In this document: positions 21,374-60,047 of the stretch, in pieces
Layout: every line of letters begins with the position of its first letter
Numbering within the stretch: the stretch's first letter is position 1
Source of the DNA: Neotamlana sargassicola
GTDB lineage: Bacteria > Bacteroidota > Bacteroidia > Flavobacteriales > Flavobacteriaceae
DNA length: 64,000 nucleotides
Assembly: GCF_020523965.1 (NCBI RefSeq)
Contig: NZ_JAJAPX010000002.1
Span: 372,001-436,000 of the forward strand
Direction of reading: 5' to 3'
Made by a program: the position numbers and the translations under genes
The notes under the pieces: generated by a model
Seen by the model: the letters and a program-made list of their open reading frames with translations, nothing else
Database searches by the model: none
Told to the model about the DNA's origin: nothing

Positions 21374-23158
21374 TTAATAACCAGGATTTTGTAACAAGGC
21401 ATCGTTTAAACCCGTTTGCGATGTTGGTAATGGGAATAAGTAATTTTCTCTAGTGAAATTTCGTGTTGATTCTGGTTGAATAACTAAACATTCACGTTCC
21501 CCAACTCCCGTTGTAGTACTTTCTGGGCTGTAGCTGTAAACACCTGGAGTGTATAAAGCATCGTTACCTTCGTAAACAGTGCCCTCTATAACTGCACCAT
21601 ATACAGCTTCTCCTAATTCAGCTTCAGCAATGCCCCAACGTCTCAAATCTGAGTAGCGTGAAGATGATTCAGCATATAATTCAATAGCACGTTCTCTTCT
21701 AATTTCGGTTTCAATGTTCATATTATTAGCCGTTAAAAATGCATTGGTAAGTGGAGGTAAACCGGCGCGTTCTTTTAATAAATTAATAGAAGCATTCATT
21801 TGTGCATCGGTTAAAGTTCCGTTTAATTCGTATAGGGCTTCGGCATACATTAAATATACTTCTGCTAAACGAATTAATGGTATATCATAACTCTCTGTTT
21901 GTGTCGCTCTGTACGCATCTGCAGTTCCCCAGTTCCAGCTCATGAATTTAGAGTTAAAATACCCAAAGTTGTTTGTTCCATTTAAAAGAACATCACCAGT
22001 TTGTGGAATTTCTCCAAGAGCTTCATGGTGTGTAAAATAGGCTCGCATTCTTAAATCTCTGTTTTGAAACTCGTCTTGCGTATCGTAATAGCCTTCAAAT
22101 AAATCGGATTCTGAAATTGGTAAACCGTCTGTACATAAAAACAAGTCCATCATTTTTCTACTTGGTCTTAATCTGCCATTGTAAACATGACTTACCAAGG
22201 TATTGGCCTGTCTAAACGTAAAATCGTATTTGCCGTATAAAATAAACTCTTTATTGCTTGCTTTGTCTAAACCAGCAGGATTCGATCCACTATCTTCAAG
22301 ATTGAACAGAAAATTATGGGTTAAGCCATCTAAAACATCATTGTAATTCCAAAGTTCGAAACTTGATGAATTCATAACAGCCTCCGTTAGGGTTACTACT
22401 TCTTCAAAATACGGTGTTATATTTGCAGCATCATAACCAGCACTTCCAGCTCCAGAGCTTACCCCATCTCCATCGGTGGTAGTACCTACATATTTCATCC
22501 AAGTGGCTTCGTGTAATAAAACTTTGGCTTTAAAAGCCATAGCAGCTTCTTTACTTATTTTTCCTTTATCTTCTGAAGCAATGTTAGCTTCCAATGGTAA
22601 GCCTGCAATGGCATCATCTAAATCGGTTAGTATTTGCGCTACTACTTCATATCTGCTGTTTCGTGGTGCATATAATTCTTCTGAGTTTACATCGAGAGAA
22701 CGTGTTACAAGTGTTACGCCACCAAAACGTTGTACTAAAAAGAAATATTGAAACGCTCTGTGGAATTTTGATGCCGCAACATACTCAATAATACTTTCTG
22801 TGCCAGAATAAGATTCTGCACGTTCAAGAAGTAAATTAATGTCTCGAATGTATTCATATGCGTCTGTGTAATAGTCATCATCAACAGGTGCTAAAATTTC
22901 ACCTCTTCCGTATTCTTGCATATCACCGCCTTCAAAATAGCCTACTAAGTCCGAGCCATGATCGGAATAAATACCTTGGTCTCCCCAGCCAGTTAAATAA
23001 GTGTAAAACCTGTTAGAACCAGATAAGAAATGTTCTGCTTCATTGTAATAAACATCATCTGTAATTGATGCTGGTGGTGTTAGGTCAATAAACTCATCTT
23101 CACACGAAGTAAAAACCGCAAAGATGCATGGTATTATTATATATAAAATCTTTTTCAT
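21374..23158 (-). CDS. SusD-like outer-membrane glycan-binding lipoprotein
   Basis: The start is set at 23158, giving 594 residues beginning MKKILYIIIPCIFAVFTSC. An upstream in-frame ATG at 23209 would overlap the susC end and place 17 residues before the signal peptide. The lipobox is FTSC (Cys19), followed by the acidic EDEFIDLTPP usual for surface lipoproteins of this group. The N-terminal TPR-like helices and the RagB/SusD C-terminal region are recognisable, with PLIRLAEVYLMYAEALYELNG, the conserved RRERAIELYAESSSRYSDLRRWG, and the ending FPLPTSQTGLNDALLQNPGY. It caps the SusC transporter encoded 20 bp upstream in the same operon and captures oligosaccharide. Confidence 0.95.
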   Translation of the reverse strand: MKKILYIIIPCIFAVFTSCEDEFIDLTPPASITDDVYYNEAEHFLSGSNRFYTYLTGWGDQGIYSDHGSDLVGYFEGGDMQEYGRGEILAPVDDDYYTDAYEYIRDINLLLERAESYSGTESIIEYVAASKFHRAFQYFFLVQRFGGVTLVTRSLDVNSEELYAPRNSRYEVVAQILTDLDDAIAGLPLEANIASEDKGKISKEAAMAFKAKVLLHEATWMKYVGTTTDGDGVSSGAGSAGYDAANITPYFEEVVTLTEAVMNSSSFELWNYNDVLDGLTHNFLFNLEDSGSNPAGLDKASNKEFILYGKYDFTFRQANTLVSHVYNGRLRPSRKMMDLFLCTDGLPISESDLFEGYYDTQDEFQNRDLRMRAYFTHHEALGEIPQTGDVLLNGTNNFGYFNSKFMSWNWGTADAYRATQTESYDIPLIRLAEVYLMYAEALYELNGTLTDAQMNASINLLKERAGLPPLTNAFLTANNMNIETEIRRERAIELYAESSSRYSDLRRWGIAEAELGEAVYGAVIEGTVYEGNDALYTPGVYSYSPESTTTGVGERECLVIQPESTRNFTRENYLFPLPTSQTGLNDALLQNPGY

Positions 23159-23178
23159 TTTTAAGTGTGTTTTTAATG

Positions 23179-26100
23179 TTATAAAGAAACTTTTAAACCT
23201 AATGCCCAAGTTCGCATGAAGGGATAGGTAGCATTGTTGGCTCCTGCCTGAGATTCTGGATCGTAACCGTCTTTTACCTTTGTAAATTCAAATAAATCGT
23301 TTCCTGAAAAATATATTCTAACCAAATCAATGTTAGTATTTGATATTTTTAAATCGTTAATATTATAGCCTACGATTAATGATTTTAAACGCACATAACG
23401 GTTGTTTTGCTTCATGAAATCTTTGTTAATGTAATTCCAGTTAGCCACATTGCGTTGGGTTGAAAGTCTCGGGAATTCTGCATTTGGGTTATCTTCTGTC
23501 CAGGTTCTTCCTAACCAAGTCGCCGATTGGTTTTGCCATACTTGCTGAAATGGTGCTGCCCAATATCCAGTTCGAACTAAATTTTGGTTTAAAACGCCTT
23601 GAAAGAATGCGCTTAAATCCCAATTTTTATATTTTAAATCGAAATTAAATCCAAATACATGATGTGGTGAAGAGTCTCCATGATAGGTTAAATCGTTAGT
23701 ATCTATAACGCCATCTCCATTGCTATCAACAATTCTTGTGTCTCCAGGAACTAAACCTGCGGCTGTACCTTGTGTAGGCAAAATGCCCCCTGAGTAAGTT
23801 GCGTAATACTCGTCTACTTCAGCTTGGTTTGCAAAATAACCATCGGTGTTATATAGGTAATACGAGTTAATCGGCTTGACTAAAATGTTTTCATCATCAT
23901 CTACGCTATTTAAACCAGCAACAATTGCTTCAGCACCATCATATTGGGTTATTTCGTTTCTAGAGTCGCTCATATTTGCAGCTACACTAACATTTAAATC
24001 TCCAAAGTTTCCACGCCATCCAATTTGGAACTCCCAACCTTTATTCACTAAAGTTCCTGAATTGGTTAAAGGCGCTCCGGCACCTAGTATGTCCGGATAA
24101 ACCAAGCTCACAAGCATATCTCTATTTTGTTTTTCAAATAAGTCTAAAGAACCAAATACAGCGTTATTAAATAATTTAAAGTCCATACCAATTTCTTTAT
24201 TAACTATGCGTTCCCATGAGGTGGTATCGCTAAATAAATTGCTGGCGCGAGAGGTTTCTTGTTGCCCTGCATTGGTTTGACCAAATACGGTTGTGCCAAA
24301 GCCTACGGTAGATAGGTATCCAAAATTCCCAAACCCAGAGGTACTTCCTAATTCGCCATAACCACCACGTAGTTTTAAAAAGGAAAGAATATCGCTATTA
24401 TTTAAAAAGTTTTCTGCACTAATAACCCAACCACCAGATATACTAAAGTAGTTAGACCATTTTTCTCCATCTGCAAAACGAGACGAACCATCTCTTCTTC
24501 CTTGAAGTTCTAATAAATATTTTTCTTTATAGTCATAGTTAATACGACCAATATATCCAAAAGCGCCCCAGGTATTTCCTCCACCTTCGGTTTCTATACT
24601 TTGGTCTGTTGCTCCTAAATTTAAATCGTAAACACCGTAATCTACAAAACCGGTTCTTCTGGCTCTTAATGCATTATTAGTGTTTTTTTCTGCTTCTATC
24701 GCTAAAAGTCCAGAAAGGTTGTGGTCTCCAAAATTGTTGTTATAATTTAATGTAGCTTTATAATTTTTATAGGTTACATTTCCAGTTTCTTCTTCAATGT
24801 ACGTATTACTTGGGTCTCTTATATACGTAGCGAAATCCCCTTGCCAGCTATATAAAGGTGCTGCAAGCGCATATTCTTGGTCTTCACTATTTTGCCTAGT
24901 TACAGAATAAGAACCTGTAATATTTAAATTATCTGTTAGTTTGTACTGTGCTTGTGCGTAAATTTTTAATTGCTCGTCTATAAAATTTTGACGTCCGCCA
25001 TCAATAACTTGCGCGATAGCATTTCTGGCTCCTGTAATGTTAACACCACCAAAAACTGAGTAATATTGTCCTAAATCGTTGTAAGCAGGGAACAAAGGGG
25101 CATCGTAAGCAGCAGCTTCGCGAGCTAAACCACCAGTTGGTCCAGATATATGACGATGAAAATATGAAACATTAGTTGTTAAACTTAGTCGTTCGCTAAT
25201 GTTTAAATTGTAGTTTAAAGAGAAATTGTAACGCTCAGATGAATCGTCGGCAACTTTTAAACCACCTACGTTATCATCATAACCAGCAGAAAGACGAAAA
25301 TTACTTTTTTCAGTGCTTCCAGATACGCTTATGTTATGCTGTGCAGAATAAGAGTTTCCAAAAAGGTCGTCAAAACGGTTACCTTCTGCTAACCAAACTC
25401 TACCATTAATAGGTAAATCGTAGTAACCTTCTTCTCCGGCCGCTATTCTTTCAAGTGTTTCATAGTCGTTCCAGAAAAAATATCTTGGGCTTTTTCCTGC
25501 AGCTAAATCTGAATCTACAGCAGCAAGGTAAATGTCTCCGTATTCTGTCATGGTTGGTGTTGGTGGTCTAATACCAATTGTTCCCATTCTCATAATGGTA
25601 CTAACATCTACCTTTACATCACCTTTACCTTTTTTAGTGGTAACTAAAATAACACCACCAGCAGCTCTAGAACCATAAACCGATGCCGATCCACCTTTTA
25701 AAACACTAATGCTTTCTATATCGTTTGGGTTCATTTCATTAAACGCTGAAGCGTTTAAGGCAGGAACACCATCAATTACTATTAAAGGTGAAATTCCGTT
25801 AATAGAAGAAGCGCCTCGAATTAAGAAGTTGATATCTTCATTTCCTGGTCTAGATGATGTACGTGTAACTACTAAACCTGGTGTTCTACCTTGTAATGCA
25901 AGAGCAGGACTACCAACAGCTAAATCTTCAAAAGCTTCAGCTTTAACTTGTTCTACAGCTCCAGTTAAGGTTTCTTTTTTTGCGGTTCCGTAACCAACAA
26001 CTACAACTTCATCTAAAGCAGAGACATCAGATTCTAATGTAACATTAACGGTGCTTTGGTTACCTACCGTAACTTCCTTGGTTACATAACCAATGTACGA

Positions 26101-26382
26101 GAAAACCAGAACATCATTGTTAGATGAAACTGTTATGCTATAGTTTCCATCGAAATCTGTAACAGCACCGTTTGATGTGCCTTTTACCAAAACATTAACA
26201 CCTGGAATGCCCATTTGGTCGTCTGCACCGGTTACGGTACCTGTTATTGTTTTGTTTTGTGTAATAGTTGGGTCTGGGTTTGCGTAGGCTTTACTGGAAA
26301 GCGTGCAAACAAAAAGGCTAAAAATTCCAAAGAGTAGTATTGGATTTTTTATAAGTGCCCGAATTTTAAATTTGTTAGTCAT
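23179..26382 (-). CDS. SusC-like TonB-dependent outer-membrane transporter
   Basis: The protein has 1067 residues, with a signal peptide ending near SSKAYA (residue 34). A carboxypeptidase-regulatory-like domain follows (about 43-120, GTVTGADDQMGIPGVNVLVKG), then the TonB-box segment DEVVVVGYGTAKKETLTGA. The plug (about 130-255) contains SVLKGGSASVYGSRAAGGVI, and the 22-strand barrel fills the rest and ends in FMRTWALGLKVSL. The paired SusD follows in the same operon. Together they import oligosaccharide across the outer membrane using TonB energy. A three-part repeat lies about 70-130 bp upstream of the start and matches those before GH88 and the GH43 operon, which links this transporter to the lyase branch of the system (inference). 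Confidence 0.96.
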   Translation of the reverse strand: MTNKFKIRALIKNPILLFGIFSLFVCTLSSKAYANPDPTITQNKTITGTVTGADDQMGIPGVNVLVKGTSNGAVTDFDGNYSITVSSNNDVLVFSYIGYVTKEVTVGNQSTVNVTLESDVSALDEVVVVGYGTAKKETLTGAVEQVKAEAFEDLAVGSPALALQGRTPGLVVTRTSSRPGNEDINFLIRGASSINGISPLIVIDGVPALNASAFNEMNPNDIESISVLKGGSASVYGSRAAGGVILVTTKKGKGDVKVDVSTIMRMGTIGIRPPTPTMTEYGDIYLAAVDSDLAAGKSPRYFFWNDYETLERIAAGEEGYYDLPINGRVWLAEGNRFDDLFGNSYSAQHNISVSGSTEKSNFRLSAGYDDNVGGLKVADDSSERYNFSLNYNLNISERLSLTTNVSYFHRHISGPTGGLAREAAAYDAPLFPAYNDLGQYYSVFGGVNITGARNAIAQVIDGGRQNFIDEQLKIYAQAQYKLTDNLNITGSYSVTRQNSEDQEYALAAPLYSWQGDFATYIRDPSNTYIEEETGNVTYKNYKATLNYNNNFGDHNLSGLLAIEAEKNTNNALRARRTGFVDYGVYDLNLGATDQSIETEGGGNTWGAFGYIGRINYDYKEKYLLELQGRRDGSSRFADGEKWSNYFSISGGWVISAENFLNNSDILSFLKLRGGYGELGSTSGFGNFGYLSTVGFGTTVFGQTNAGQQETSRASNLFSDTTSWERIVNKEIGMDFKLFNNAVFGSLDLFEKQNRDMLVSLVYPDILGAGAPLTNSGTLVNKGWEFQIGWRGNFGDLNVSVAANMSDSRNEITQYDGAEAIVAGLNSVDDDENILVKPINSYYLYNTDGYFANQAEVDEYYATYSGGILPTQGTAAGLVPGDTRIVDSNGDGVIDTNDLTYHGDSSPHHVFGFNFDLKYKNWDLSAFFQGVLNQNLVRTGYWAAPFQQVWQNQSATWLGRTWTEDNPNAEFPRLSTQRNVANWNYINKDFMKQNNRYVRLKSLIVGYNINDLKISNTNIDLVRIYFSGNDLFEFTKVKDGYDPESQAGANNATYPFMRTWALGLKVSL

Positions 26383-26449: not shown

Positions 26450-26512
26450 AGACAATATTAAATAGATTCTACAAGCTTAATTTTAAATTATAGCCGAACT
26501 AATATAAATTAT
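26450..26512 (-). promoter_or_regulatory. Three-part direct-repeat operator upstream of susC
   Basis: Read on the - strand: unit 1 ATAATTTATA (26512 to 26503), unit 2 ATAATTTAAA (26491 to 26482, 21 bp downstream), and a degenerate unit 3 AATCTATTTA (26468 to 26459, 23 bp further). Unit 3 is followed by ATTGTCTTAAC, which parallels ATTGTCTAAAC at the same offset in the 57.5 kb copy. Unit 3 begins 86 bp before the susC start. The 21/23 spacing equals that of the other two copies. Unit sizes and helical spacing suit a dimeric AraC-type DNA-binding domain such as that of an HTCS. Confidence 0.6.
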
Positions 26513-26700
26513 GATGCATTTACGCTTAAATTGGTGTACCAGTGTTGGTTATGTATCATTAAAAAACTGCTTTTAAATTGCGATTATTTGATTTTTTATA
26601 CGCTGTATTTGAGAATTTTTTAAAGAATCTAGCAATAAACTAACCCTGAATGGATATTAAAAGTTTTTTAGAAAAATATGAGGATTTCGATAAATGAACC

Positions 26701-26754
26701 ATAATTTATAGCTTATGGATAATAATTTAACACTATTAATAGGGCTTATTTATA
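26701..26754 (+). promoter_or_regulatory. Three-part direct-repeat operator upstream of GH88
   Basis: Unit 1 ATAATTTATA (26701-26710), unit 2 ATAATTTAAC (26722-26731) and unit 3 CTTATTTATA (26745-26754) start 21 and 23 bp apart. Unit 3 is followed by ACATTGT and begins 40 bp before the GH88 start. Unit 1 is also followed by TATGG at the same offset as in the 57.5 kb copy. A perfect CCATAA/TTATGG dyad spans unit 1. Confidence 0.65.
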
Positions 26755-26784
26755 ACATTGTATTGTCGAAAACCAAAAATTAAT

Positions 26785-28020
26785 ATGAATATAATTAAGT
26801 CATCCTTAGTAATAGCATTTTTAATGATGCTGTCTTGTAATTCTACAAAAAAAGAAGCTGAAACCAAAATAGAAGAAACTGCCTTTACGTTTGAAGATGT
26901 TTTGCAGAAAAATGTAACGAAGCTAGAAAAAGTTTCAATAGGATTGGCAAAAGCAGATAGCTTACCAAGAAATATAAAAGGAGAAAATACGAATTGGGGA
27001 TTTGTTAGTTACACAGATTGGTGTAGTGGATTTTGGCCTGGTACATTATGGTATGCCTATGAGGCTTCAAACAACGAAGAGCTAAAAAAGCAAGCAGAAC
27101 GATTTACAGATCCATTAAAACCAATTGCGTATACCCCAGCCGACAACCATGATATTGGTTTTATGATGTATTGTAGTTATGGTAATGGTTACAGATTAAC
27201 AAAAAATGAGGCTTATAAAGACATTTTATTAGCAGCTGCCGATACATTGGCGACCTTATATAACCCAAAGGTTGGAACTATTTTATCTTGGCCTAGCCAA
27301 AAGCATAAATTCAAATACAATACTATTATTGATAATATGATGAATTTAGAGCTTTTGTTTTGGGCTGCCAAAAATGGGGAAAATAAAGGGTTATACGATA
27401 TTGCTAAAAGTCATGCCGAAAAAACCATGAATCATATTGTTAGAAAGGATAGTGCGGTTTATCATGTGGGATCTTTTGATGAAGAAACGGGTGAGTTTTT
27501 AAGAGGTTATACACACCAAGGTTATGCACACGAATCGATGTGGGCTAGAGGTCAAGGTTGGGGTATTTATGGGTTTTCCGTAGCCTTTAGAGAAACTGGA
27601 GAACAAGCCTTTTTAGATACTGCAGAAAAATTGGCGAATCATTATATGAATCGTTTACCAGAAGATAAAATTCCTTATTGGGATTTCGATGACCCTAATA
27701 TTCCTGAAGCTCCAAAAGATGCTTCTGCAGCGGCTGTGGCAGCATGTGGTATGATTGAACTGTCTCAATTGATAAAAGACGAAAACAAAAAAGAAAAGTA
27801 TTTTAATGCTGCTGTAAGTTATGTTGAAGAATTATCGTCTTCAAAGTATTTAAGTGGAGATAAAAATCAAGCTTTATTATTGCATTCAACAGGGCATTTC
27901 CCTAAAAATTCCGAAATAGATGTACCCATTATCTATGCCGACTATTATTACATGGAAGCCTTGTTAAGATTAAAGAAATTACATGCTAAGACCACGAAAA
28001 GTGAATTAGCATTAAAATAA
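26785..28020 (+). CDS. GH88 unsaturated glucuronyl hydrolase, lipoprotein
   Basis: The start is set at 26785 (MNIIKSSLVIAFLMMLSC), which gives a clean lipoprotein signal with Cys18; an ATG nine codons earlier would break it. The 411-residue protein is an (alpha/alpha)6 barrel. Key residues are Asp123 in NHDIGFMMY and Asp183 in TIIDNMMNLELL, matching the two catalytic aspartates of GH88 enzymes, plus YAHESMWARGQGWGIYGF. GH88 hydrates the 4,5 double bond of the unsaturated uronic acid left by a polysaccharide lyase, releasing a keto-uronic acid. This matches the lyase at 62.4 kb and the kduI/kduD genes downstream. The gene is divergent from susC and has its own three-part operator. Confidence 0.93.
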   Translation: MNIIKSSLVIAFLMMLSCNSTKKEAETKIEETAFTFEDVLQKNVTKLEKVSIGLAKADSLPRNIKGENTNWGFVSYTDWCSGFWPGTLWYAYEASNNEELKKQAERFTDPLKPIAYTPADNHDIGFMMYCSYGNGYRLTKNEAYKDILLAAADTLATLYNPKVGTILSWPSQKHKFKYNTIIDNMMNLELLFWAAKNGENKGLYDIAKSHAEKTMNHIVRKDSAVYHVGSFDEETGEFLRGYTHQGYAHESMWARGQGWGIYGFSVAFRETGEQAFLDTAEKLANHYMNRLPEDKIPYWDFDDPNIPEAPKDASAAAVAACGMIELSQLIKDENKKEKYFNAAVSYVEELSSSKYLSGDKNQALLLHSTGHFPKNSEIDVPIIYADYYYMEALLRLKKLHAKTTKSELALK

Positions 28021-32282: not shown

Positions 32283-35200
32283 ATGCGAATTAAAATTTTC
32301 ATAACATTTTTGTTATGGGCCAATCTAAGTATGGCTCAATTAAATAATCTAAGATTTGAAAACTTAGACACCTACAACGGTTTATCCAGTAGTACTTGTG
32401 TTGAAATTTATCAGGATTTAGATGGTTTTATGTGGTTTGGTACTATTGATGGGCTTAACAAATATAACGGCTACGAATTTGAGGTTTTTAGAAATATTGT
32501 AGACGATAATACCTCAATAAGCAACAACAGAATAAATACTATTGAAGAAGATAATCAAGGTAATTTATGGGTAGGAACAAACAACGGGTTAAACCTGTTT
32601 AATAAGCAAACCAATCAATTTACCAGAATAGGGTTATACGACAATCTTTCTTTGGCCAGTAGCAAAAAAAAGATAATAAACGATTTACTTTACGATGGTA
32701 TTAATAACACCCTTTGGGTAGCCACAGAAATTGGCGTAATAAAAATGGAGTTAAGCGATTATATTATTAATAGTGAAAACTCTAAGTTTTCGTATTATAT
32801 TCATAATCAGTTGGATGTTAATTCTATCGATAACAATAGCGCTAATGTAATTTTACAAGATAAAGAAGGAGAAATTTGGGTGAGTACTAATGGCAATCAC
32901 TTAAATAAATATAGTAAAAAGAACGATAATTTTGATAGAGTTTACATTGAAAGCGATATGCCTTATGAACTCAATCATATTAGAAAAAAGGTGTTTGTTG
33001 ATGAAGATGGTGACTTTTGGATTGGTAACGATATTTCTCGTTTAATTTTATGGAACAGAGAAGATAATTCCTTTAAGCAAGTAGCTTTAAGCCAAAAGAG
33101 TATTCCAGTGCACGATATTTATCAAGACAAAGAAGGAATATATTGGGTTTCTACCGATGGTTATGGCTTGTTTTTATGCGAGAAAAATAATGGTGAAGTA
33201 CATTTTAAGCAAAATATTTTAAACAATTATGCCGATCCGTTTTCATTGCCAAATAATAAACCAACTAAAATTATAGAGGATAATAATGGCGTATTCTGGA
33301 TGGGGAGTTACGATGTGGGTGTAAGTATGCTCGACTTATCTAGTTCTTTTGCTTATTATTATTACACACCAAATAACAGCCAAGGATTAAATCAAAAAAC
33401 AGTACAATCTGTTTTGCAGGACTCTAAAGGCCGAATCTGGTTAAGCGCATATAATGGCGGGTTAAATTTGTTTAACGAAAAATCGCAAACTTTTAGTCAT
33501 TACTCCAGTCAAAACACTAAATTAAGTTCCAACAAAATAATGTACACTTTCGAAAGCAGCGATGGTTTTATTTGGGTGTGTACTTTAGATAAAGGGTTAA
33601 ATAAATTCAATCCAGAAACCGGGAAGTTTGAAGTTTTTTTACACGATGATAATAATCCTAATTCTATCGGCCAAAGTTCTGTTTGGACAGGGGTAGAAGA
33701 TTACAAAAATAGAATTTGGTTAGGGTTAAGAGATGAAGGTATAAGTTTGTACAATCCAGAAACGGGGCTGTTTAAAAATTACAAAAACGAGTATGGTAAC
33801 AAAACAAACTTACAGAGCAATAAAATACTATGTACATTTATAGATTCTAAGAATAGATTATTTGTTGGTACGTTTTTAGGCTTAAATGTGGTGAACCTGG
33901 AAGGTTTGGATTCTATTCCTAACGATATTGTTTTTAATCAAGTAGATAAAAAAGGGATTGAAGGTGTTGGTATAAATTATATTACCGAAGATCATGCCGG
34001 TAATATTTGGGTTGGCGCAGATAGTGGTGTGCATAAATTAGATGCAAATTTAAACGTAATTAAATCATATTCTTCAATAAATGGATTACCAAACAATTTG
34101 GTAGTAGGTATTCAGGAAGACAATAATAAAAATATATGGATATCTACAAAAGGAGGCCTGTCTTTATTACATCCTAATACTAATGAGTTTAAAAATTTTA
34201 ATACCCACGACGGTGTTCAAGGGTCCGAGTTTCAAAGCAAAGCGATTGCAAAAACTCAAGATGGACGTATCATTGTGGGTGGTATTAATGGGTTTAATAT
34301 TTTTCAGCCAAACGACATATTATATCCAGCTTCGGTAAGCCTAAAACCGCAATTAACAAACTTTAAATTAAATAATAAAACCGTTATAGCAGGCGATTCT
34401 ATTAATGGTCGAATTTTGCTAAATAAGGGAATTTCGGAGGTTAACAACGTGGAATTAAAATATAACGAAAATTATATTTCGTTCGAATTTTTAGCATTGC
34501 ACCTTGAAAACCCAGAAAGAGTTCGGTACGCCTACCGTATGAAAGGTTTAGATGATGAATTTATTAACATAGGATCGAACCGCTTAGTAAACTTATCGAA
34601 TCTAGAAAATGGAGACTACAATTTTGAAGTTAAAGCATCAATAAATAACAACTGGGAAAATGCACAAACGGCATCGGTAAATATAACCATATTACCTCCA
34701 ATTTGGCGCACTTGGTGGGCTTACTTAATATATTTTGTGTTAGGAGTATTAATATTTTGGTTAATAATGCATTATTATACCTTAAAAGTGCAAGAAGGTC
34801 AGCTTCGAGAGTTAGACCAAATGAAGCTTCAGTTTTTTGTAAATGTGTCTCATGAATTTAGAACACCGTTAACACTTATATTAAATCCGGTCGATAAAAT
34901 ATTATCGAATTTTAACAACGACCCAGAGGTTATTAAAAACTCGGCCTTATCTATTCAAAGAAGTGCTCGTAGATTGCTGCATCTAGTAAACCAGTTACTA
35001 GATTACAGAAAAATGGATGCAGGTATGTCTCCAGTGCAACTCGAAAAAGGCGATATGTTAGTATTTGTTCAAGATATATTTTCTTTATTTAAAGGTTTGG
35101 CATTTAAAAAAGAAATAGAATATAAATTTAAAAGCTCTTCCGATAAAATAATAGCTATTTTCGATTTTGATAAAGTTGAAAAAATTGTAACAAATTTAAT

Positions 35201-36458
35201 ATCAAATGCTTTAAAATTTACAACTAGTGGCGGACGTATAACAGTATCAATTAATCAGGTAAAAAGTAATGCAAATAAGCCGAAGTCGCTGTTTTTCTCA
35301 AATAAAAAATTAAGTGATTATGTTGAGATTATTGTAAAAGATACAGGTGTTGGACTAGATAAAGAGCAGTTAAAAAATATATTTTCACGTTTTCATAATG
35401 CCGACCCAACAAAAACAGGAACAGGTATAGGGTTAAATTTTACAAAAGCATTAGTTGAGGCACAAGGTGGCGAAATACAAGTAGAAAGTAAATTTAAAAG
35501 CGGTGCAAAGTTTATTGTAAGGCTACCATTAAATTTAGGAGCGAAAGCAGAAACAGTTGAGAATGTTAAAGACGAATTCTTAATCAATTCAATTAAAACG
35601 GTAGAGTACGATATGTTAATTACGGACGATGTTAATATTGCTGTAAGAGACAATGAAAACGTTAAAAACACCTCTACAAATACTAAAAAGCCTGTTGTAC
35701 TCATTGTTGAAGATAATAAAGAGTTGCGTACCCATTTAAGTAACGATTTAAGTCAGTTTTATCAAGTAAAGCAAGCAGCCAATGGGGAAGAAGGATTAAA
35801 AAAGGTAAAAAAAGCGCTTCCAGACCTAGTAATTAGTGATGTAATGATGCCAAAAATGAATGGTTTTGAGTTGTGCGAGGCAATAAAATCCGAATTTGAA
35901 ACCTCACATATCCCAGTGTTACTTTTAACAGCAAAGACCCTAGAAGAAGATAGAATTCATGGCTATCAACATGGTGCCGATGGTTATTTATCCAAGCCAT
36001 TTGTAACAAGTGTGCTTATGGCTCGCATAAAAAACTTACTCGAATCTAAAAACCGATTACGAAAACGTTACTCCGAAATAGGCGGCGTGTTTCCTTCTAG
36101 CGAGGTAACTACAAATAATTTAGACGAAGTATTCCTCGATAAAGTCACTAAAGTTATTTTAGATAATGTTAGCGATTTAGACTTTAAGCAAGAGCAACTA
36201 TTAAAAGAAATAGGTATTGGTCGTTCTCAATTTTACAGAAAAATTAATTCTCTTACAGGTAGTAACCCGAGTAACTTTATTCGAACTATTCGCCTGCGTT
36301 ATGCTTCAGAATTATTGTTAAAAGATCAATATTCTATTAAGGAAGTTACGCATATGTCAGGTTTTAATTCTACCGCATATTTTAGTAAAACCTTTAAAGA
36401 ACTCTTCGATTTAACACCTAGCCAGTTTATAGATGAAAATGCTGTTAGTAAATCTTAA
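32283..36458 (+). CDS. Hybrid two-component system regulator (HTCS), complete
   Basis: The protein has 1391 residues. It starts with a signal peptide (to about 19, LSMAQ) and two seven-bladed propellers made of Reg_prop repeats such as GFMWFGTIDGLNKYNGYEF and GNLWVGTNNGLNLFN (about 20-710). A Y_Y_Y domain follows (about 730-800), then one membrane helix (about 813-835). The kinase has His857 in VNVSHEFRTP and an HATPase domain (GVGLDKEQ, GTGIGL). The receiver has Asp1186 in VISDVMMPK, and an AraC-type HTH ends the protein (RYASELLLKDQYSIKEV). It senses an oligosaccharide and activates nearby operons. It lies 184 bp after the LacI gene. Likely targets are the esterase/GH78 operon or the susCD genes at 43.1 kb, but the sequence does not decide. 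Confidence 0.97.
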   Translation: MRIKIFITFLLWANLSMAQLNNLRFENLDTYNGLSSSTCVEIYQDLDGFMWFGTIDGLNKYNGYEFEVFRNIVDDNTSISNNRINTIEEDNQGNLWVGTNNGLNLFNKQTNQFTRIGLYDNLSLASSKKKIINDLLYDGINNTLWVATEIGVIKMELSDYIINSENSKFSYYIHNQLDVNSIDNNSANVILQDKEGEIWVSTNGNHLNKYSKKNDNFDRVYIESDMPYELNHIRKKVFVDEDGDFWIGNDISRLILWNREDNSFKQVALSQKSIPVHDIYQDKEGIYWVSTDGYGLFLCEKNNGEVHFKQNILNNYADPFSLPNNKPTKIIEDNNGVFWMGSYDVGVSMLDLSSSFAYYYYTPNNSQGLNQKTVQSVLQDSKGRIWLSAYNGGLNLFNEKSQTFSHYSSQNTKLSSNKIMYTFESSDGFIWVCTLDKGLNKFNPETGKFEVFLHDDNNPNSIGQSSVWTGVEDYKNRIWLGLRDEGISLYNPETGLFKNYKNEYGNKTNLQSNKILCTFIDSKNRLFVGTFLGLNVVNLEGLDSIPNDIVFNQVDKKGIEGVGINYITEDHAGNIWVGADSGVHKLDANLNVIKSYSSINGLPNNLVVGIQEDNNKNIWISTKGGLSLLHPNTNEFKNFNTHDGVQGSEFQSKAIAKTQDGRIIVGGINGFNIFQPNDILYPASVSLKPQLTNFKLNNKTVIAGDSINGRILLNKGISEVNNVELKYNENYISFEFLALHLENPERVRYAYRMKGLDDEFINIGSNRLVNLSNLENGDYNFEVKASINNNWENAQTASVNITILPPIWRTWWAYLIYFVLGVLIFWLIMHYYTLKVQEGQLRELDQMKLQFFVNVSHEFRTPLTLILNPVDKILSNFNNDPEVIKNSALSIQRSARRLLHLVNQLLDYRKMDAGMSPVQLEKGDMLVFVQDIFSLFKGLAFKKEIEYKFKSSSDKIIAIFDFDKVEKIVTNLISNALKFTTSGGRITVSINQVKSNANKPKSLFFSNKKLSDYVEIIVKDTGVGLDKEQLKNIFSRFHNADPTKTGTGIGLNFTKALVEAQGGEIQVESKFKSGAKFIVRLPLNLGAKAETVENVKDEFLINSIKTVEYDMLITDDVNIAVRDNENVKNTSTNTKKPVVLIVEDNKELRTHLSNDLSQFYQVKQAANGEEGLKKVKKALPDLVISDVMMPKMNGFELCEAIKSEFETSHIPVLLLTAKTLEEDRIHGYQHGADGYLSKPFVTSVLMARIKNLLESKNRLRKRYSEIGGVFPSSEVTTNNLDEVFLDKVTKVILDNVSDLDFKQEQLLKEIGIGRSQFYRKINSLTGSNPSNFIRTIRLRYASELLLKDQYSIKEVTHMSGFNSTAYFSKTFKELFDLTPSQFIDENAVSKS

Positions 36459-53381: not shown

Positions 53382-56300
53382 ATGCTAAACCGTTTTTTAT
53401 TTTATATTTTTTTACTAATTACTTGTTTAATTAATGCTCAAGATATTAAGTTCGAGCATTATAACGATAAAGGTGGGCTGTCGCAAAACTCGGTGCGTCA
53501 CATTGTACAAGATAAACAAGGGTTTTTATGGATTGGTACCTTTTCTGGGTTAAACCGTTTCGATGGCTACGAGTTTAAAACCTATTTAAGTAATTCGGGA
53601 GACAAAAATAGTATTAATAACAACGATATTACCGCTTTAAAATATGATAAAAATAATAATTGGTTGTGGATTGGAACAAGAAACGGCTTAACACAACTCA
53701 ATTTAAATACCTATAAATTTACCACATATTTAAATCAACCCGAAGTCGCAAATAGTTTGCCCGATAATGAAATTAGGTCGGTTTATATCGATAGTTTTAA
53801 TAGAGTTTGGGTTGGAACAAAAGATCATGGTTTATATTGGTTTTATGCTGAAGAAAACCGATTTGAAAAGATAAACTTGCCTCATTTTGATTATATAAAA
53901 GAAATTTTTGAAGACGATGAAGGTAATATTTGGGTAGGTAGTTATGGTACAGCTTCTGTTGCTAAAATAGTATTAAATAACAACGGTGAAATTCAAAAAA
54001 CGGCAACTTATACCATTCAAAACAAAAACACTTCAGAAAACAACCCGTATTTAAATTTTATATATCAAGATAAAGCTGCGAATTTATTTGTGGGCACCAG
54101 AAGCGGACTTTTTAAGTTGAATAAATCTGAAAATAAATTTGAACATTTAGAGGTTCGTAATAAAGAATTAAACGAAGCTTTGGGCTCTTATTTTAAATCT
54201 GTATCGCAATCACCAGAAGGTAAATATTGGGTTGGCACTATTGGCGGATTACTGGTTTGTGATAAGTTAGAAGATATTCAAAAAGGGCATTTTAAACATT
54301 ATTTTGCCGATTTAACAAATTACACATCGTTGGTAGATAATTTGGTGACATCATTATTTTTTGATGCCTCTGGGGTACTCTGGATTGGCACAGAAAATGG
54401 ACTCGATAAATACGATCCGTTTCAAAATCAATTTCATTTAAATAAAGACATTTCAAAATACATAGGTAACAAAGTGCCTTGGATTCGTGGTTTTGCAAAA
54501 ACATATAACAACAACCTCATTGTTGCTACTAGGCATAACGGTTTATTTGTTTCTACTAATTTTGGGTTTAAGCCTTTATATCATGGTAAATACGATATAG
54601 CCAGTATTTATACCATAAATGAAAAATTGTTTTTTTGCGGGTTATGGAATGGTAAATTGTTGGTTTATAATTATGTAAATAATACTGCAAAAGTAGTTGA
54701 TGTTGGTTTTGGGGATACGCCAATTGTGGCTTTCGAAACTTTAGGAAATAACCAGCTCGTTTTAGGCTCGTTTGGCGAAGGGGCTATTAAAATAAATACC
54801 AAGAATTTAAAACCTGAAATTAAAGGAGAACACCTGTTAAAAACGGCCGATGTTAACGAAATTCTTTATGGAAAAAATAATGAAATTTGGTTTGCTACCG
54901 AAGCCGGATTAATTAAGTATAACCTAAAAACAAAAACTCAAGAGCATTATTTGGCTACAACAGATCAAAAATCTGGGTTGCCACATGTAAATGTAAGTGA
55001 TATTATTTTCGATAAAAACGAGGTGCTTTGGGTAGCAACTAGGCAAGGGCTTTGTTATTTTGATAAAACTAAAAACAAGTTTGTTCAACCAAAAGAACCT
55101 GCTGCTTTAACCGAGAGTTGGATTACAGATTTATTAGTCGATTCTAATAATAATTTATGGTTAAATGTAAATAATAATAGTGTAGCGCGTTACAATTTTA
55201 AAACGAATAGTTACAACGCCTATCGGGTAGATAGCGGTAATCGATTAGATTATTACAGTCCAAAAGGTTTTTTTAGTAAAGGCGCTTCAAATATTTATTT
55301 GGGTGGTAAAAATGGCGTTATTCATTTTTCTCCAGAAGCATTAAATATTAATAAACTGGCTCCTAAACCAATAATAACCGAAATAAAAGTACAAAACGAA
55401 GTTGTAATTCCTGGTAAAGAAATTAACGGTAAAATTCCATTAGAAAAAGATTTAAACGAAGCTCAAATTATGGAGTTAGATTATAATATTCGAAATTTTT
55501 CTTTTCAATTTTCTACACCGTCATACACAAACCAATTACTAAATCAATTTCAATACAAATTAAATGGTTTCGATAAGGATTGGATAACAACAAGTAGTAA
55601 CTCACGTACTATTCAATACACCAATTTGTTTCCTGGTGAGTATCAATTTCAGTTAAAAGCAAGTAATAGCGACGGCGTTTGGAGCACTGTACAATCATAT
55701 CAAATAAAAATTAATAAACCCTTTTGGCTAACGTATAAAGCCCTTGTGTTGTTTTTATTATTAATAGCGTTAATTACTTATTTTGTTAGGCGTGAGGTTA
55801 AAAATAGAATGCGATTAAAGCAAGAGTTAGTAACCGAAAAAGTTAATAGGGAACGCGATGTTAAATTAAACAATGAAAAGCTAAGGTTTTTTACTAACAT
55901 TTCGCATGAGTTACGCACGCCTTTAACCCTAATTTTAGGTCCGGCTAAACAGCTTTTAGAAGACGAAGAAATTAAAAGTACGAGCTACCAAAAAAGTCGT
56001 TTTCAACTTATTCATCAAAACGCAAGTCGATTATTAAACTTGGTTAATCAAGTGCTCGATTTTAGAAAAGCACAAACTGGAGAACTAAAATTAAAAGTAA
56101 CAAAAACCAATGTTATTCAGTTTACACAAAACACCTTCGATTCCTTTAAAGAATTTGCATATAACAAAAACATTCATTTTAATTTTAACACCGAGGCCGA
56201 TTCTATTTCTGGTTGGTTAGATAAGGATAAATGCGATAAAATTCTATATAACTTATTATCAAATGCTATAAAGTTTACTCAAAAATATGGCCATGTCGAT

Positions 56301-57413
56301 TTATTTGTAGGTTTTAAAAATAACGATAAAACGCATTTAATTATTGAGGTTTCCGACGATGGTATCGGGATTCCTAAAAAAAGCCAAGAAAAAATATTTA
56401 ATCGATTTTATCAAGCAACAAATAGCAAAGAAAATAATACGGGTTCTGGTATTGGTTTGTCTCTTGTAAAGGCGCTGGTCGATTTACATAAAGGAGAAAT
56501 TTCTGTTAAAAGTAAACCTAAAAAAGGTAGTGTTTTTACGGTTTTATTACCAATAACGCGCGATTTTTATAATGAAGATGAAGTGTTTGAAATAGAAAAA
56601 AATGAAGAAAATTTTGTTCCTTTTAATGATAAAACACCAAAAAATCTGTCAGCTAATACCGAGATAAAACAAAAGATTTTAGTAATTGAAGATAATTTAG
56701 AACTACGGAATTATTTAATAGATTACTTATCGAATTACTATCAAGTTTTTGAAGCTGAGAACGGAGAAGAAGGTTTGCAGTTATGCCGGAAAATTAAACC
56801 TATTTTATGTGTTGCAGATGTTATGATGCCAGTTAAAGATGGTTTAGAGTTTTGTAAAGAGCTAAAAAACGACGAATCTATAAGTCATATTCCAGTAATA
56901 TTATTAACAGCGCTTTCCGAAAACGAAGATAAAGTGCGTGGTTTCGATTTAGGTGCCGATGGTTATTTGGTGAAACCATTCGATCCGGCCCTGTTAAAAT
57001 CTCGAATTTCAAATATTGTAAAAACAAGATTCGATCTAAAAGCAAAATTCTCTGGAGATACCGATAGTGAAATAAGTTTACTGGTTAATTCTCCTATCGA
57101 TGAAGCCTTCATGGAAAAATTGTCAATTATTATAGATGATAATATAGAAAACCCCGATTTAACCACAAGTTATTTATGCGATAAACTTGGAGTAAGTTCG
57201 TCAAAATTATATCGAAAAATAAAAGCTTTAACCGACTTGTCTCCAAATGAATTTATACGAACTGTTCGTTTAAAAAAATCGGCTCAATTATTAAAAACAA
57301 AAAAATACAACGTATCGGAGGTTACAAACTTGGTTGGGTTTAACGACCCCCTATATTTTAGCCGAAGATTTAAACAGCAATTTGGGTTTCCTCCAAGCCA
57401 ATTGTTAAAGTAA
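53382..57413 (+). CDS. Hybrid two-component system regulator (HTCS), complete
   Basis: The protein has 1343 residues, with a signal peptide (to about CLINAQ, residue 20) and propeller repeats such as GFLWIGTFSGLNRFDGYEF and NWLWIGTRNGLTQLN (to about 690). A Y_Y_Y domain (about 710-775) and a membrane helix (about 787-806) follow. His842 lies in TNISHELRTP, and the HATPase boxes are GIGIPKKS and GSGIGL. The receiver has Asp1146 in CVADVMMPVKDG, and the C-terminal AraC-type HTH ends in FGFPPSQLLK. It is immediately upstream of the GH43-to-lyase operon, whose promoter carries three direct repeats. This makes it the best candidate for binding those repeats and the matching ones near 26.5 and 26.7 kb (inference). 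Confidence 0.97.
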   Translation: MLNRFLFYIFLLITCLINAQDIKFEHYNDKGGLSQNSVRHIVQDKQGFLWIGTFSGLNRFDGYEFKTYLSNSGDKNSINNNDITALKYDKNNNWLWIGTRNGLTQLNLNTYKFTTYLNQPEVANSLPDNEIRSVYIDSFNRVWVGTKDHGLYWFYAEENRFEKINLPHFDYIKEIFEDDEGNIWVGSYGTASVAKIVLNNNGEIQKTATYTIQNKNTSENNPYLNFIYQDKAANLFVGTRSGLFKLNKSENKFEHLEVRNKELNEALGSYFKSVSQSPEGKYWVGTIGGLLVCDKLEDIQKGHFKHYFADLTNYTSLVDNLVTSLFFDASGVLWIGTENGLDKYDPFQNQFHLNKDISKYIGNKVPWIRGFAKTYNNNLIVATRHNGLFVSTNFGFKPLYHGKYDIASIYTINEKLFFCGLWNGKLLVYNYVNNTAKVVDVGFGDTPIVAFETLGNNQLVLGSFGEGAIKINTKNLKPEIKGEHLLKTADVNEILYGKNNEIWFATEAGLIKYNLKTKTQEHYLATTDQKSGLPHVNVSDIIFDKNEVLWVATRQGLCYFDKTKNKFVQPKEPAALTESWITDLLVDSNNNLWLNVNNNSVARYNFKTNSYNAYRVDSGNRLDYYSPKGFFSKGASNIYLGGKNGVIHFSPEALNINKLAPKPIITEIKVQNEVVIPGKEINGKIPLEKDLNEAQIMELDYNIRNFSFQFSTPSYTNQLLNQFQYKLNGFDKDWITTSSNSRTIQYTNLFPGEYQFQLKASNSDGVWSTVQSYQIKINKPFWLTYKALVLFLLLIALITYFVRREVKNRMRLKQELVTEKVNRERDVKLNNEKLRFFTNISHELRTPLTLILGPAKQLLEDEEIKSTSYQKSRFQLIHQNASRLLNLVNQVLDFRKAQTGELKLKVTKTNVIQFTQNTFDSFKEFAYNKNIHFNFNTEADSISGWLDKDKCDKILYNLLSNAIKFTQKYGHVDLFVGFKNNDKTHLIIEVSDDGIGIPKKSQEKIFNRFYQATNSKENNTGSGIGLSLVKALVDLHKGEISVKSKPKKGSVFTVLLPITRDFYNEDEVFEIEKNEENFVPFNDKTPKNLSANTEIKQKILVIEDNLELRNYLIDYLSNYYQVFEAENGEEGLQLCRKIKPILCVADVMMPVKDGLEFCKELKNDESISHIPVILLTALSENEDKVRGFDLGADGYLVKPFDPALLKSRISNIVKTRFDLKAKFSGDTDSEISLLVNSPIDEAFMEKLSIIIDDNIENPDLTTSYLCDKLGVSSSKLYRKIKALTDLSPNEFIRTVRLKKSAQLLKTKKYNVSEVTNLVGFNDPLYFSRRFKQQFGFPPSQLLK

Positions 57414-57508
57414 GTAATCGTTACAAATTTTTAGAAGCAAGAATTACTCAAACTAATACAAAATCTACTATTTACCGTGGTTATTGGTGTTGTTCGGTTA
57501 AATGAGCA

Positions 57509-57562
57509 ATAGTTTATACGCTATGGTTCATAGTTTATATCAATAAAACACCATAGTTTATA
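57509..57562 (+). promoter_or_regulatory. Three-part direct-repeat operator upstream of the GH43-lyase operon
   Basis: ATAGTTTATA occurs three times exactly: 57509-57518, 57530-57539 and 57553-57562 (start spacings 21 and 23 bp, about two helical turns). The second and third copies also share a preceding C and a following TCA. Unit 3 is followed by CATTGTCT and begins 42 bp before the start codon at 57595. Spacing and placement match the repeats upstream of GH88. The arrangement suggests cooperative binding by a dimeric activator. Confidence 0.75.
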
Positions 57563-57594
57563 TCATTGTCTAAACTAAATCAAGACTTATTTTA

Positions 57595-58689
57595 ATGATA
57601 AATGTGAAGTATTTAATTTTATTTTTCTTCGGAATTTTTGCCTGTAACGCACAAAATATAATCTATGATAATTTAGAAGAAGCGCCTGTTGATGGTGGTT
57701 TGCAAATGGAAAATTATTGGGTTTGGGGAAGTTCGGTAATAAAAGGAGACGATGGTTTATATCACATGTATGCATCGCGTTGGCCAAGTTATTTGCCGTT
57801 TCATCCTGGTTGGATGGTTGCTTCAGAAATTGTTCATGCCACATCAAAAACACCAGAAGGGCCTTATAAATTTCAAGATGTTGCTTTAGGAAGTCGAGGT
57901 GCTCAATTTTGGGATGGTCGCTCATGTCACAATCCTAAAATTGTAAAACATAACGATACTTATATTTTGTATTACATGGGCTCAACACATCCTTTCGAAG
58001 AAGTTAATCACGGTAATGTAGAGGAATTCGATTTAAAAAGTAAATGGTGTATTGCTGCACGCTGGGGTAAACGTGTTGGCGTTGCAACATCTAAAAGTCC
58101 GTTTGGTCCTTGGGAACGACGCGATGCACCAATTTTAGAAGTAAAACCAAATAGCTATTACAGTTTTTTAACCTCAAATCCATCACCGTTAATTAAAGAA
58201 GATGGCTCTGTGGTGCTTTTATTTAAAGGTAGAAGCTATCAAGACGATGAAATTACACATAGCGACATGAGTATAGGTGTTGCAACGGCGCCTTCGTTCG
58301 ATGGTGAATATACGGTTGTAGGAACAAAACCTTTGTTCTCAATGGAACATTTAGGCGAGGTTGAAGACCCGCATTTATGGAGCGATAATACCGGTTTTCA
58401 TTTAGTTGCAAAAGATCAACGCGGATTAATAACCGGCGGTAAAGGCGATGGTTTATTAGCACATTCAAAAGATGGTATCCATTGGGAAGTCGATAAATCG
58501 GCAAGAGCCTATACTAAAATCGTAAAATGGAATAACGGAAAAACAATAAAACAAGGCCAATTAGAACGCCCATTTGTATTTACAGAAAATGATGTGCCAA
58601 CGCATATTTTCTTTGCCACAATGGATGGTCCTGGAGGTTTTAGCAACGGGACAAAAACTTGGAATATGGTTATTCCTTTAAATCATTAA
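57595..58689 (+). CDS. GH43-like five-bladed beta-propeller glycosidase
   Basis: The protein has 364 residues, with a signal peptide (to about FACNAQ, residue 20). Repeated blades contain the sugar-hydrolase style motifs WGSSVIKGDDGLYHMYASRW, WDGRSCHNPKIVKHNDTYILYYMG, SNPSPLIKEDGSVVLLFKG and GEVEDPHLWSDNTGFHLVAKD. Acidic residues near each blade start fit a GH43/GH117/GH130-type propeller, but I cannot assign the exact family or the catalytic triad. It is the first gene of the operon that ends in the lyase, directly after the three-part operator. In related algal-polysaccharide loci such enzymes remove xylose, arabinose or galactose side groups, or cut unusual terminal sugars. The activity here is open. 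Confidence 0.72.
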   Translation: MINVKYLILFFFGIFACNAQNIIYDNLEEAPVDGGLQMENYWVWGSSVIKGDDGLYHMYASRWPSYLPFHPGWMVASEIVHATSKTPEGPYKFQDVALGSRGAQFWDGRSCHNPKIVKHNDTYILYYMGSTHPFEEVNHGNVEEFDLKSKWCIAARWGKRVGVATSKSPFGPWERRDAPILEVKPNSYYSFLTSNPSPLIKEDGSVVLLFKGRSYQDDEITHSDMSIGVATAPSFDGEYTVVGTKPLFSMEHLGEVEDPHLWSDNTGFHLVAKDQRGLITGGKGDGLLAHSKDGIHWEVDKSARAYTKIVKWNNGKTIKQGQLERPFVFTENDVPTHIFFATMDGPGGFSNGTKTWNMVIPLNH

Positions 58690-58718
58690 ACTAAAAAAAT
58701 CAACTAAAATATAATTAA

Positions 58719-60038
58719 ATGGATAGAAAAATTTTAATCTGGTCAATTACAGCAGCACTTGCTGGTTTTTTATTCGGTTTCGATGTCGTTGTTATTTCTG
58801 GAGCCGATAAAAAATTACAAGCCTTATGGGGGTCGTCTGAAGCTTTTCACGGTATGATAGTTATGGGGATGGCACTTTGGGGAACCGTTATTGGTGCCAT
58901 TTTTGGCGGTTGGCCAACTAATAAATACGGACGAAAAAACACGCTCATTGTTATTGGAGTGTTATTTGCTGTTTCTGCCATTGGTTCGGCTTTGGCTAAC
59001 GATCCGTATGTATTTGCTTTTGCACGTTTTATTGGTGGATTAGGAGTAGGCGCATCAACCATTGCCGCGCCTGCGTATATTTCGGAAATTGCGCCAGCTA
59101 AAGATCGTGGACGTTTGGTTGCTATGTATCAATTCAATATCGTTTTTGGTATTATGATAGCTTATGCATCAAATTATTTGTTAAGTGATATTGGTGAAAA
59201 CGATTGGCGTTGGATGTTGGGTGTAGAAGCTATTCCTGCGGTATTGTATATTTTATTTGCTTTGCAAGTACCTAAAAGTCCGCGTTGGTTACTTTCAAAA
59301 AACAGAGAAGCTGAAGCTAGAGAAATTTTTGAAATTATAGAACCTAATGCAGATATTGATGAGCTTATTAGCGAGCATCATGTACACGCAGCAAAAAGCG
59401 ATAAAACCGAAACTATTTTTATAAAAAAATATAGATTTCCTTTAATGTTGGCTTTTTTAATTGCATTTTTTAATCAATTTTCAGGAATAAATGCAGTGTT
59501 ATATTATGCGCCACGTATTTTTGAAGCAGCCGGATTGGGCGAAAATTCAGCTTTATTAAATAGTATTGGTTTAGGGGTTACAAATTTAATATTCACATTG
59601 TTAGGTGTGTTTTTAATAGATAAACTAGGCCGTAAAACGCTTATGTATATTGGATCTTTGGCTTATATTTTGTCATTAAGTTTATTATCTGCTGCTTTTT
59701 TCCTTGAATGGACAGGAATGGCGGTGCCATGTTTCTTGTTTTTATTTATTGCAGCTCATGCTGTTGGTCAAGGAGCCGTTATTTGGGTGTTTATTTCAGA
59801 AATTTTCCCAAATCATTTAAGAGCTTCGGGGCAGGCCTTTGGTAGCTCAACGCATTGGGTGTTGGCGGCATTAATTCCATCATTATTTCCATTATTATTA
59901 AAAGTTGCAGGAGGCGGCTTGGTATTTTTAGTGTTTGCAGGAATGATGGTTTTACAATTACTTTTTGTTGCTTTTATGATGCCAGAAACAAAGGGGAAAA
60001 CACTAGAGGAATTGGAAGACGTAATGCTAAAAAAATAA
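58719..60038 (+). CDS. Major facilitator sugar porter (XylE-like)
   Basis: This 439-residue inner-membrane protein has about 12 helices and the sugar-porter signatures: FLFGFDVVVISGA in helix 1, the loop GGWPTNKYGRKN, RFIGGLGVGASTIAAPAYISEIAPAKDRGRLV, PKSPRWLL after helix 6, FNQFSGINAVLYYAPRIFE in helix 7, and PETKGKTLEELE at the end. Such carriers bring in pentoses, hexoses or inositol, usually with protons. It lies 29 bp after the GH43-like gene and 9 bp before the esterase, so it belongs to the same operon. It probably takes up a monosaccharide released by these enzymes, such as xylose, galactose or an uronic acid. The specificity cannot be read here. Confidence 0.92.
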   Translation: MDRKILIWSITAALAGFLFGFDVVVISGADKKLQALWGSSEAFHGMIVMGMALWGTVIGAIFGGWPTNKYGRKNTLIVIGVLFAVSAIGSALANDPYVFAFARFIGGLGVGASTIAAPAYISEIAPAKDRGRLVAMYQFNIVFGIMIAYASNYLLSDIGENDWRWMLGVEAIPAVLYILFALQVPKSPRWLLSKNREAEAREIFEIIEPNADIDELISEHHVHAAKSDKTETIFIKKYRFPLMLAFLIAFFNQFSGINAVLYYAPRIFEAAGLGENSALLNSIGLGVTNLIFTLLGVFLIDKLGRKTLMYIGSLAYILSLSLLSAAFFLEWTGMAVPCFLFLFIAAHAVGQGAVIWVFISEIFPNHLRASGQAFGSSTHWVLAALIPSLFPLLLKVAGGGLVFLVFAGMMVLQLLFVAFMMPETKGKTLEELEDVMLKK

Positions 60039-60047
60039 ACAAAGTGT

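Follow-up and report, generated by a model that had tools for sequence, protein, structure and literature searches.

A repeated element in front of polysaccharide gene groups of Neotamlana sargassicola and its most likely regulator, a hybrid two-component system

Introduction

The combination of a hybrid two-component system (HTCS) with a 21-bp direct-repeat operator is a kind of system already known from Bacteroides. According to the accessible text of Ravcheev et al. 2013 (PMC3878776), the HTCS operators of Bacteroides thetaiotaomicron are direct repeats with a mean spacing of 21 bp, and the motifs reported there are also computational predictions. The SHIP loop of the Bacteroides HTCSs BT4124 and BT4663 has been linked to inhibited DNA binding before phosphorylation, as stated in the available part of that report (PMC11253607). 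For the sigma-A promoters of F. psychrophilum, the available part of the source gives the motif TAnnTTTG at -12 to -5 and a median leader of 24 nt (PMC9723704).

The window analyzed here is a stretch of 64,000 nucleotides, positions 372001-436000 on contig C21 of the 3.6-Mb genome of the Flavobacteriaceae member Neotamlana sargassicola. It resembles the B. thetaiotaomicron system, as far as the accessible text describes it, in that a two-site direct repeat stands upstream of susCD and of enzyme operons, and in that an AraC-type HTCS is encoded near part of its regulon while distant genes can belong to it; however, the host belongs to the Flavobacteriaceae and the likeness is one of layout, not of base-by-base motif comparison (PMC3878776). 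Beyond what the accessible text of Ravcheev et al. offers, the present analysis adds the fixed distance to a -7 box and tests the presence of the regulator at genome scale (PMC3878776). Like BT4124 and BT4663 as partly described, the proposed regulator, H2, carries by its sequence a SHIP loop and a receiver joined to an AraC-type HTH (PMC11253607). The putative -7 box and the short predicted leaders are similar to those given for the F. psychrophilum sigma-A promoters (TAnnTTTG) in the available part of that source, but the box reads TAnnATTG and no conserved -33 element accompanies it (PMC9723704). The element is counted among the HTCS operators on the 21-bp spacing of its two direct half-sites and on two further findings, namely that its sites lie upstream of PUL genes and of their orthologues, and that H2 is present in 20 of the 21 genomes with the exact pattern, the 21st match lying inside a gene. 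A literature search, with most subscription journals outside its reach, found no earlier description of this operator or of its link to H2. The less expected feature is the fixed phase of the repeat to a non-consensus -7 box.

Results

The locus and its gene content

The three copies of the element were named A (57.5 kb, lyase operon), B (26701, + strand, GH88) and C (26512, - strand, susC), and their parts are listed with the genes under study in Table 1. H2 consists of one chain with sensor, kinase, receiver and AraC-type HTH, which is the complete HTCS domain set. The operon that starts at 57595 extends beyond the window end and encodes a protein related to the ulvan lyase Uly1040, and the solved relatives of the GH88 protein are unsaturated glucuronyl and chondroitin-disaccharide hydrolases. 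The window also holds a KduI-SDR-DUF4861 operon, a LacI-type gene (31079) and a second PUL with H3 at its end. GH88, KduI, the sulfatases and the Uly1040-related protein point to a sulfated uronic-acid polysaccharide, probably algal, as the likely substrate. Beside a PUL, a planctomycete-type cytochrome c/PSD domain protein and a DUF1552 (HXXSHH) protein are encoded in this flavobacterium (14953-19916).

Table 1. Positions of the genes, element parts and further predicted sites (window coordinates unless marked as contig; transcription starts are predictions)
Feature	Position	Strand	Remarks
H1	130-2019		AraC-type HTCS, truncated at the left window edge
susC + susD	21374..26382	-	Target of copy C
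Copy C -7 box TAATATTG	26453..26460	-	Predicted start ~26448, 66-nt leader to susC
Copy C proximal half-site	26482..26500	-	5' half degenerate, 21 bp from distal
Copy C distal half-site AAATGCATCATAATTTATA	26503..26521	-	susC promoter
Copy B distal half-site AAATGAACCATAATTTATA	26692..26710	+	GH88 promoter
Copy B proximal half-site	26713..26731	+	
Copy B -7 box TAACATTG	26753..26760	+	Predicted start ~26765, 20-nt leader to GH88 ATG at 26785
GH88 unsaturated glucuronyl hydrolase-like protein	26785..28020	+	Divergent from susC; target of copy B
H2, proposed regulator	32283..36458	+	Reg_prop sensor, Y_Y_Y, HisKA, HATPase, receiver, AraC-type HTH_18
H3, second HTCS of the window	53382..57413	+	Adjoins copy A
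Copy A distal half-site AAATGAGCAATAGTTTATA	57500..57518	+	Lyase operon promoter
Copy A proximal half-site	57521..57539	+	
Copy A third unit ATAGTTTATA	57553..57562	+	Perfect; overlaps -7 box
Copy A -7 box TATCATTG	57561..57568	+	Predicted start ~57573, 22-nt leader
Operon under copy A	57595..63998	+	GH-like protein, MFS transporter, esterase, sulfatase, ulvan-lyase-like protein
Further site	contig 453698	+	Upstream of sulfatase
Further site	contig 466810	-	Upstream of CBM6 protein
Further site	contig 466888	+	Upstream of GH31
Further site	contig 479474	+	Upstream of short ORF
Further site	contig 481674	+	Upstream of O-antigen-ligase-like gene
Further site	contig 506721	+	Upstream of alginate-lyase-like CBM6 protein
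Further site	contig 514783	+	Upstream of SusC
Further site	contig 522363	+	Upstream of leucine-rich-repeat protein

Anatomy of the element

The sequence-only reading had described each copy as three 10-bp units, and its coordinates and spacings could be confirmed, with unit starts at 26701, 26722 and 26745 in copy B (+ strand), at 26512, 26491 and 26468 in copy C (- strand), where the third unit is degenerate as claimed, and at 57509, 57530 and 57553 in copy A (spacings 21 and 23 bp). The flanking bases are also kept, with ATTG after unit 3 in all three copies and TATGG after unit 1 in two. The 10-bp units are present, but the conserved repeat is longer, about 19 bp, and begins 9 bp upstream of 'unit 1'; the three-part anatomy did not stand, the third unit being mostly a -7 promoter box and not a third full repeat. 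The element thus reads, from its conservation profile, as two putative half-sites of about 19 bp in direct orientation (AAATGRnYnATAATTTATA-like), 21 bp apart, plus a -7 box. In the site logo, the conserved half-sites approximate AAAWGRRYnATAATTTAT and TTTGAATnATAATTTAT. Of the flanking bases, the 'ATTGT after unit 3' closes the box TAnnATTG, and the 'TATGG after unit 1' makes up the 5' part of the second half-site. Self-correlation of the half-site profile reached 0.76 at 21 bp and was at most 0.39 at the other shifts from 15 to 49.

The second-best shift, 44 bp (0.39), is the place of the supposed third unit, and this bears on an alternative anatomy, a genuine three-site operator in which a third regulator subunit binds unit 3 at +23 bp, beside or over the -7 box. 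In its favor are the perfect 10-mer of copy A, which is retained at the orthologous promoters of G173 and G348 (both of the same genus as the source), and the presence of unit 3 with two mismatches or fewer at 10 of the 21 first-set sites; the third unit also keeps some likeness to a half-site through a T four bases ahead of the -7 box, conserved at 0.92. We nevertheless regard it as unlikely, since the best conserved columns at that place are those of the -7 box (T, A, T, T and G at 0.95 or above), the TG of the half-site is missing in register in all three window copies, the unit is present in only 2 of 14 sites of the later genomes, and 23 bp is off the 21-bp helical phase. The three-unit reading was dropped as the main anatomy on the -7 box conservation, the unit counts and the half-site profile.

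Position of the putative -7 box and predicted promoter register

When matches were ranked by units 1-2, 31 of the top 45 (25 of 35 without the same genus) had TAnnnTTG at a single fixed offset, and the other 14 had no box at that place. A regex of the units only, whose sites were not selected for the box, placed TAnnnTTG at the fixed position in 20 of 21 matches. The chance rate of TAnnnTTG is 0.0019 per position; the 20/21 and 31/45 counts come from stretches picked by protein orthology and are independent in this respect, but the related genomes are not fully independent of one another. The box could also be seen in 14/14 sites of the later genomes, where the stretches were taken around full-pattern matches, so that this count is not independent, and in 2 of 4 units-only regex matches of the own region. 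At position 5 of the -7 box, 81% of the sites have A, compared to T in the consensus; the logo and the 30-site model use box-bearing sites only, and box values of 0.98 arise by construction. The -33 element of Bacteroidota sigma-A promoters is TTG/TTTG, 19-21 bp upstream of the -7 box. No conserved TTG was found at the expected place in the site logo, which is expected because the promoter would be activator-dependent in the two-half-site reading.

Leaders were predicted at the F. psychrophilum register up to the first ATG opening at least 90 codons, which is a mechanical choice. For the 11 own-genome sites they amounted to 20 (GH88), 22 (lyase operon), 66 (susC), 167, 31, 23, 20, 73, 25, 22 and 134 nt, with a median of 25 nt, and a perfect TAnnnTTG was present in only 6 of the 11. 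Taking ATTGT as a -33 box was rejected, as it puts the transcription starts inside GH88 and the 57595 gene, whereas as a -7 box it gives leaders of 20-22 nt. The proximal half-site spans about -52 to -34 in the predicted register, a geometry that would suit an activator replacing the -33 contact.

Association of the element with H2 across genomes

A family-wide test was conducted on 397 genomes with a homologue cut-off of E<=1e-250 for H2 and H3. The exact full pattern occurred in 21 of the 397, namely in 20/20 genomes with H2 and 1/377 without it (Fisher 9e-33). The match in the odd genome, G115, was taken as chance because it scores -5.1 under the 30-site model, against at least 34.9 for the training sites, and lies inside a 1019-codon open frame. 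With one mismatch or fewer, each of the 20 H2 genomes carried 2 to 9 matches, and a match was present in 45 of the 377 genomes without H2; the total in the 20 H2 genomes was 99, versus 0 for the reversed control. One of the 377, G216, has a 59% match of the 57595 protein, and has neither H2 nor the exact pattern. Of the 20 H2 genomes, 13 (with the own genome among them) had served to write the exact pattern, and all seven others carry it. In six of these (G212, G227, G129, G011, G236 and G001), a divergent site pair precedes a susC and H2 lies beside the susD, with SusC identities of 69-72% in the first three and 39% in the last three; the seventh, G061, has one site ahead of GH88. Among the genomes of the first look, H2 was present in 13/14 and H3 in 11/14.

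The association is not only one of linkage, since H2 lies megabases from the exact sites in two genomes: in G335 its distance to the exact site and to the locus exceeds 2 Mb, and in G014 both exact sites are 1.4 Mb away. In G014 the linkage is only partly broken, because H2 has three one-mismatch sites no farther than 17 kb from it. As H2 travels with the whole locus, co-occurrence alone cannot separate it from another conserved gene of the locus. H2 is most likely the regulator of the element.

A different candidate is H3, which would use the same two half-sites and promoter. Its gene directly precedes copy A, with 86 bp from the gene end to the distal half-site, and the exact pattern occurs in 18 of 39 H3 genomes versus 3 of 358 others. 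However, three genomes with both H2 and the pattern (G348, G014 and G129) lack H3 at E<=1e-250, and among the 22 H3 genomes without H2 only one has the pattern (G115, inside a gene). Four same-genus pairs carry H3 in both members (G370/G203, G227/G382, G335/G153 and G383/G228), and in each of them exact matches occurred only in the member with H2. The susC2 promoter beside H3's own PUL, moreover, has a different conserved 21-bp repeat. On the genome co-occurrence and this separate repeat, H3 was ruled against as regulator of copies A-C, and we consider it very improbable in that role.

The repeat at the susC2 promoter (window 42900-43180) reads TCCAT-N16-TCCAT (21 bp) and is conserved in three aligned genomes including G173 and G321; a TAnnTTG starts 26 bp after the first base of the second TCCAT. 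It is a candidate H3 operator, which would have the same layout as the H2 element.

Still less probable is that another regulator of the locus, the LacI-type protein (31079) or H1, uses the element. The LacI-type gene stands between GH88 and H2 in the genus, and H1 is an AraC-type HTCS. LacI-type operators are typically palindromes, whereas the element is a direct repeat, and a palindrome is present at the LacI/KduI promoter (31016-31035); in addition, the LacI-type gene was found only in loci of the genus and in no stretch fetched from other genera. LacI was set aside on the direct-repeat form of the element and on the absence of the LacI-type gene from the stretches fetched from other genera. 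For H1, homologues of 61-79% were found in 10 of the 19 other H2 genomes, and the other 9 had none above 40% among the matches listed. H1 was rejected on this count: even with the own genome, no more than 11 of the 20 H2 genomes have a close homologue (at least 61%), and G173 and G348 are without one.

The palindrome, AAATGCAATCGATTGTATTT, lies between the LacI-type gene and KduI and is identical in G348, and its exact form was not found in G173. It is probably the LacI operator, and the cytoplasmic Kdu steps may therefore be under LacI and not under H2.

Conservation in relatives

Orthologues in relatives were found by protein and the stretches around them were fetched. One scoring pass read a single strand per locus, so its low scores at minus-strand loci are not absences; the second pass read both strands. 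Many of the relatives' sites precede GH88, susC or the start of the lyase operon. The claim that susCD, GH88 and the lyase operon form one regulon is supported by the conservation of the element at these genes in relatives, and by the same genes lying close together in several other genera. In G321, G335 and G121, an extra fucosidase-like gene, with 27-29% identity to that of the window, heads the 57595 operon and the site precedes that gene. In G348, which lacks the block 40125-57413 with H3, the 57595 orthologue comes immediately after GH78 and the operator is preserved.

In the window, this 17-kb block (40125-57413) separates two parts of the proposed H2 regulon; it forms a complete PUL that includes an HTCS and contains GFO, a 3-keto-disaccharide hydrolase-like protein, SusC2/D2, GH92, fucosidase, esterase and H3. 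In G173, a stop and a frame change interrupt the susC orthologue, with a promoter site ahead of the gene kept.

Searches in shuffled, related and own sequences

The repeated element in front of several sugar-digestion gene groups is real. When each copy was used as an ungapped 66-base query on both strands of the window (~128,000 positions), the best match of copy A after itself was B, the next matches of B were A and then C, and the next match of C was B. As A was missing from the top ten of C, and C from that of A, the A-C link runs via B and the conserved profile. A model trained on 30 sites from other genera, all with a -7 box, ranked the three window copies first to third (55.2, 54.7 and 32.1), while 30 Markov-1 shuffles of 158 kb peaked at 4.9.

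Further, it had been proposed that the motif would lose its meaning if it were equally common in shuffled sequence or unrelated genes; this was not the case, as the three-copy matrix gave 37 matches above 13 bits in 405 kb of relatives versus 0-6 in each of 20 Markov shuffles. The best shuffled score under this matrix was 24.0, and therefore single matches of 13-24 bits in relatives prove little. The pattern search of the whole own genome placed 7 of 8 matches at one mismatch or fewer in one 108-kb stretch. At three mismatches or fewer, 67 pattern matches were obtained versus 45 for the reversed control; only strong matches count, because this is little above the control. Chance similarity within AT-rich intergenic DNA is of negligible probability and already ruled out as far as sequence statistics go. 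In its favor are the AT-rich composition of the sites, the high frequency of single units and the fact that the pattern at up to three mismatches hardly exceeds its control, but the single-copy scans, the shuffles, the foreign-trained model and the reversed-pattern control all contradict it.

The predicted sites support a regulon that reaches beyond the window. The foreign-trained model gave 11 sites with scores over 10 bits when applied to 158 kb of the own genome, and 8 of them lie within 87 kb past the window (Table 1); the own genome outside the 158 kb was searched by pattern only. The sites at 466810 and 466888 form another divergent pair. Since a perfect TAnnnTTG is missing from 5 of the 11, the weaker sites may belong to related regulators. 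The site at 481674 (20.6 bits) precedes a Wzy_C gene, with an RND pump gene further on, which is odd for a polysaccharide regulon; a similar sequence is present in G173 at C43:171183.

Discussion

We consider it highly probable that the element serves one shared regulon through an HTCS dimer, most likely of H2, on two half-sites joined to a fixed -7 box. Each copy would be an activator-dependent promoter, and we infer activation rather than repression. The half-sites, two helical turns (21 bp) apart, would bind the AraC-type domains of one dimer. The proximal half-site would end near -34, where the -33 element would be, so that the bound regulator could recruit sigma-A RNA polymerase to the fixed, non-consensus -7 box TAnnATTG at the predicted starts. 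H2 would sense a periplasmic oligosaccharide of the sulfated, uronic-acid-containing, probably algal polysaccharide, and a phosphorelay to its receiver domain would release the DNA-binding domain. In this manner, susCD, GH88 and the lyase/sulfatase operon would be switched on together, along with at least some of the genes behind the 8 further downstream sites.

A more tentative proposal, which we consider slightly less likely than not, is that the element could be a regulator-plus-promoter cassette, about 70 bp long and both rigid and transferable, with the half-sites phase-locked to a regulon-specific -7 box (position 5 T->A). If this is true, the T->A change at position 5 would make the promoter silent without its own HTCS, and one sensor would hold the regulon across genera despite interposed PULs or a distant regulator gene, as in G335 and G014. 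H3 seems to use this grammar too, with a half-site of its own, and under the cassette proposal the code may hold generally and allow many orphan HTCSs to be read.

The Flavobacteriaceae carry many HTCSs and polysaccharide loci, and the pairing of sensor and target is often inferred from neighborhood. For the 57.5-kb operon, the neighborhood would point to the wrong sensor, whereas the motif and gene presence across genomes point to another. The outcome is a named candidate regulator, exact half-sites and predicted transcription starts, and half-sites in fixed register with a -7 box may offer a way to read other HTCS regulons from sequence.
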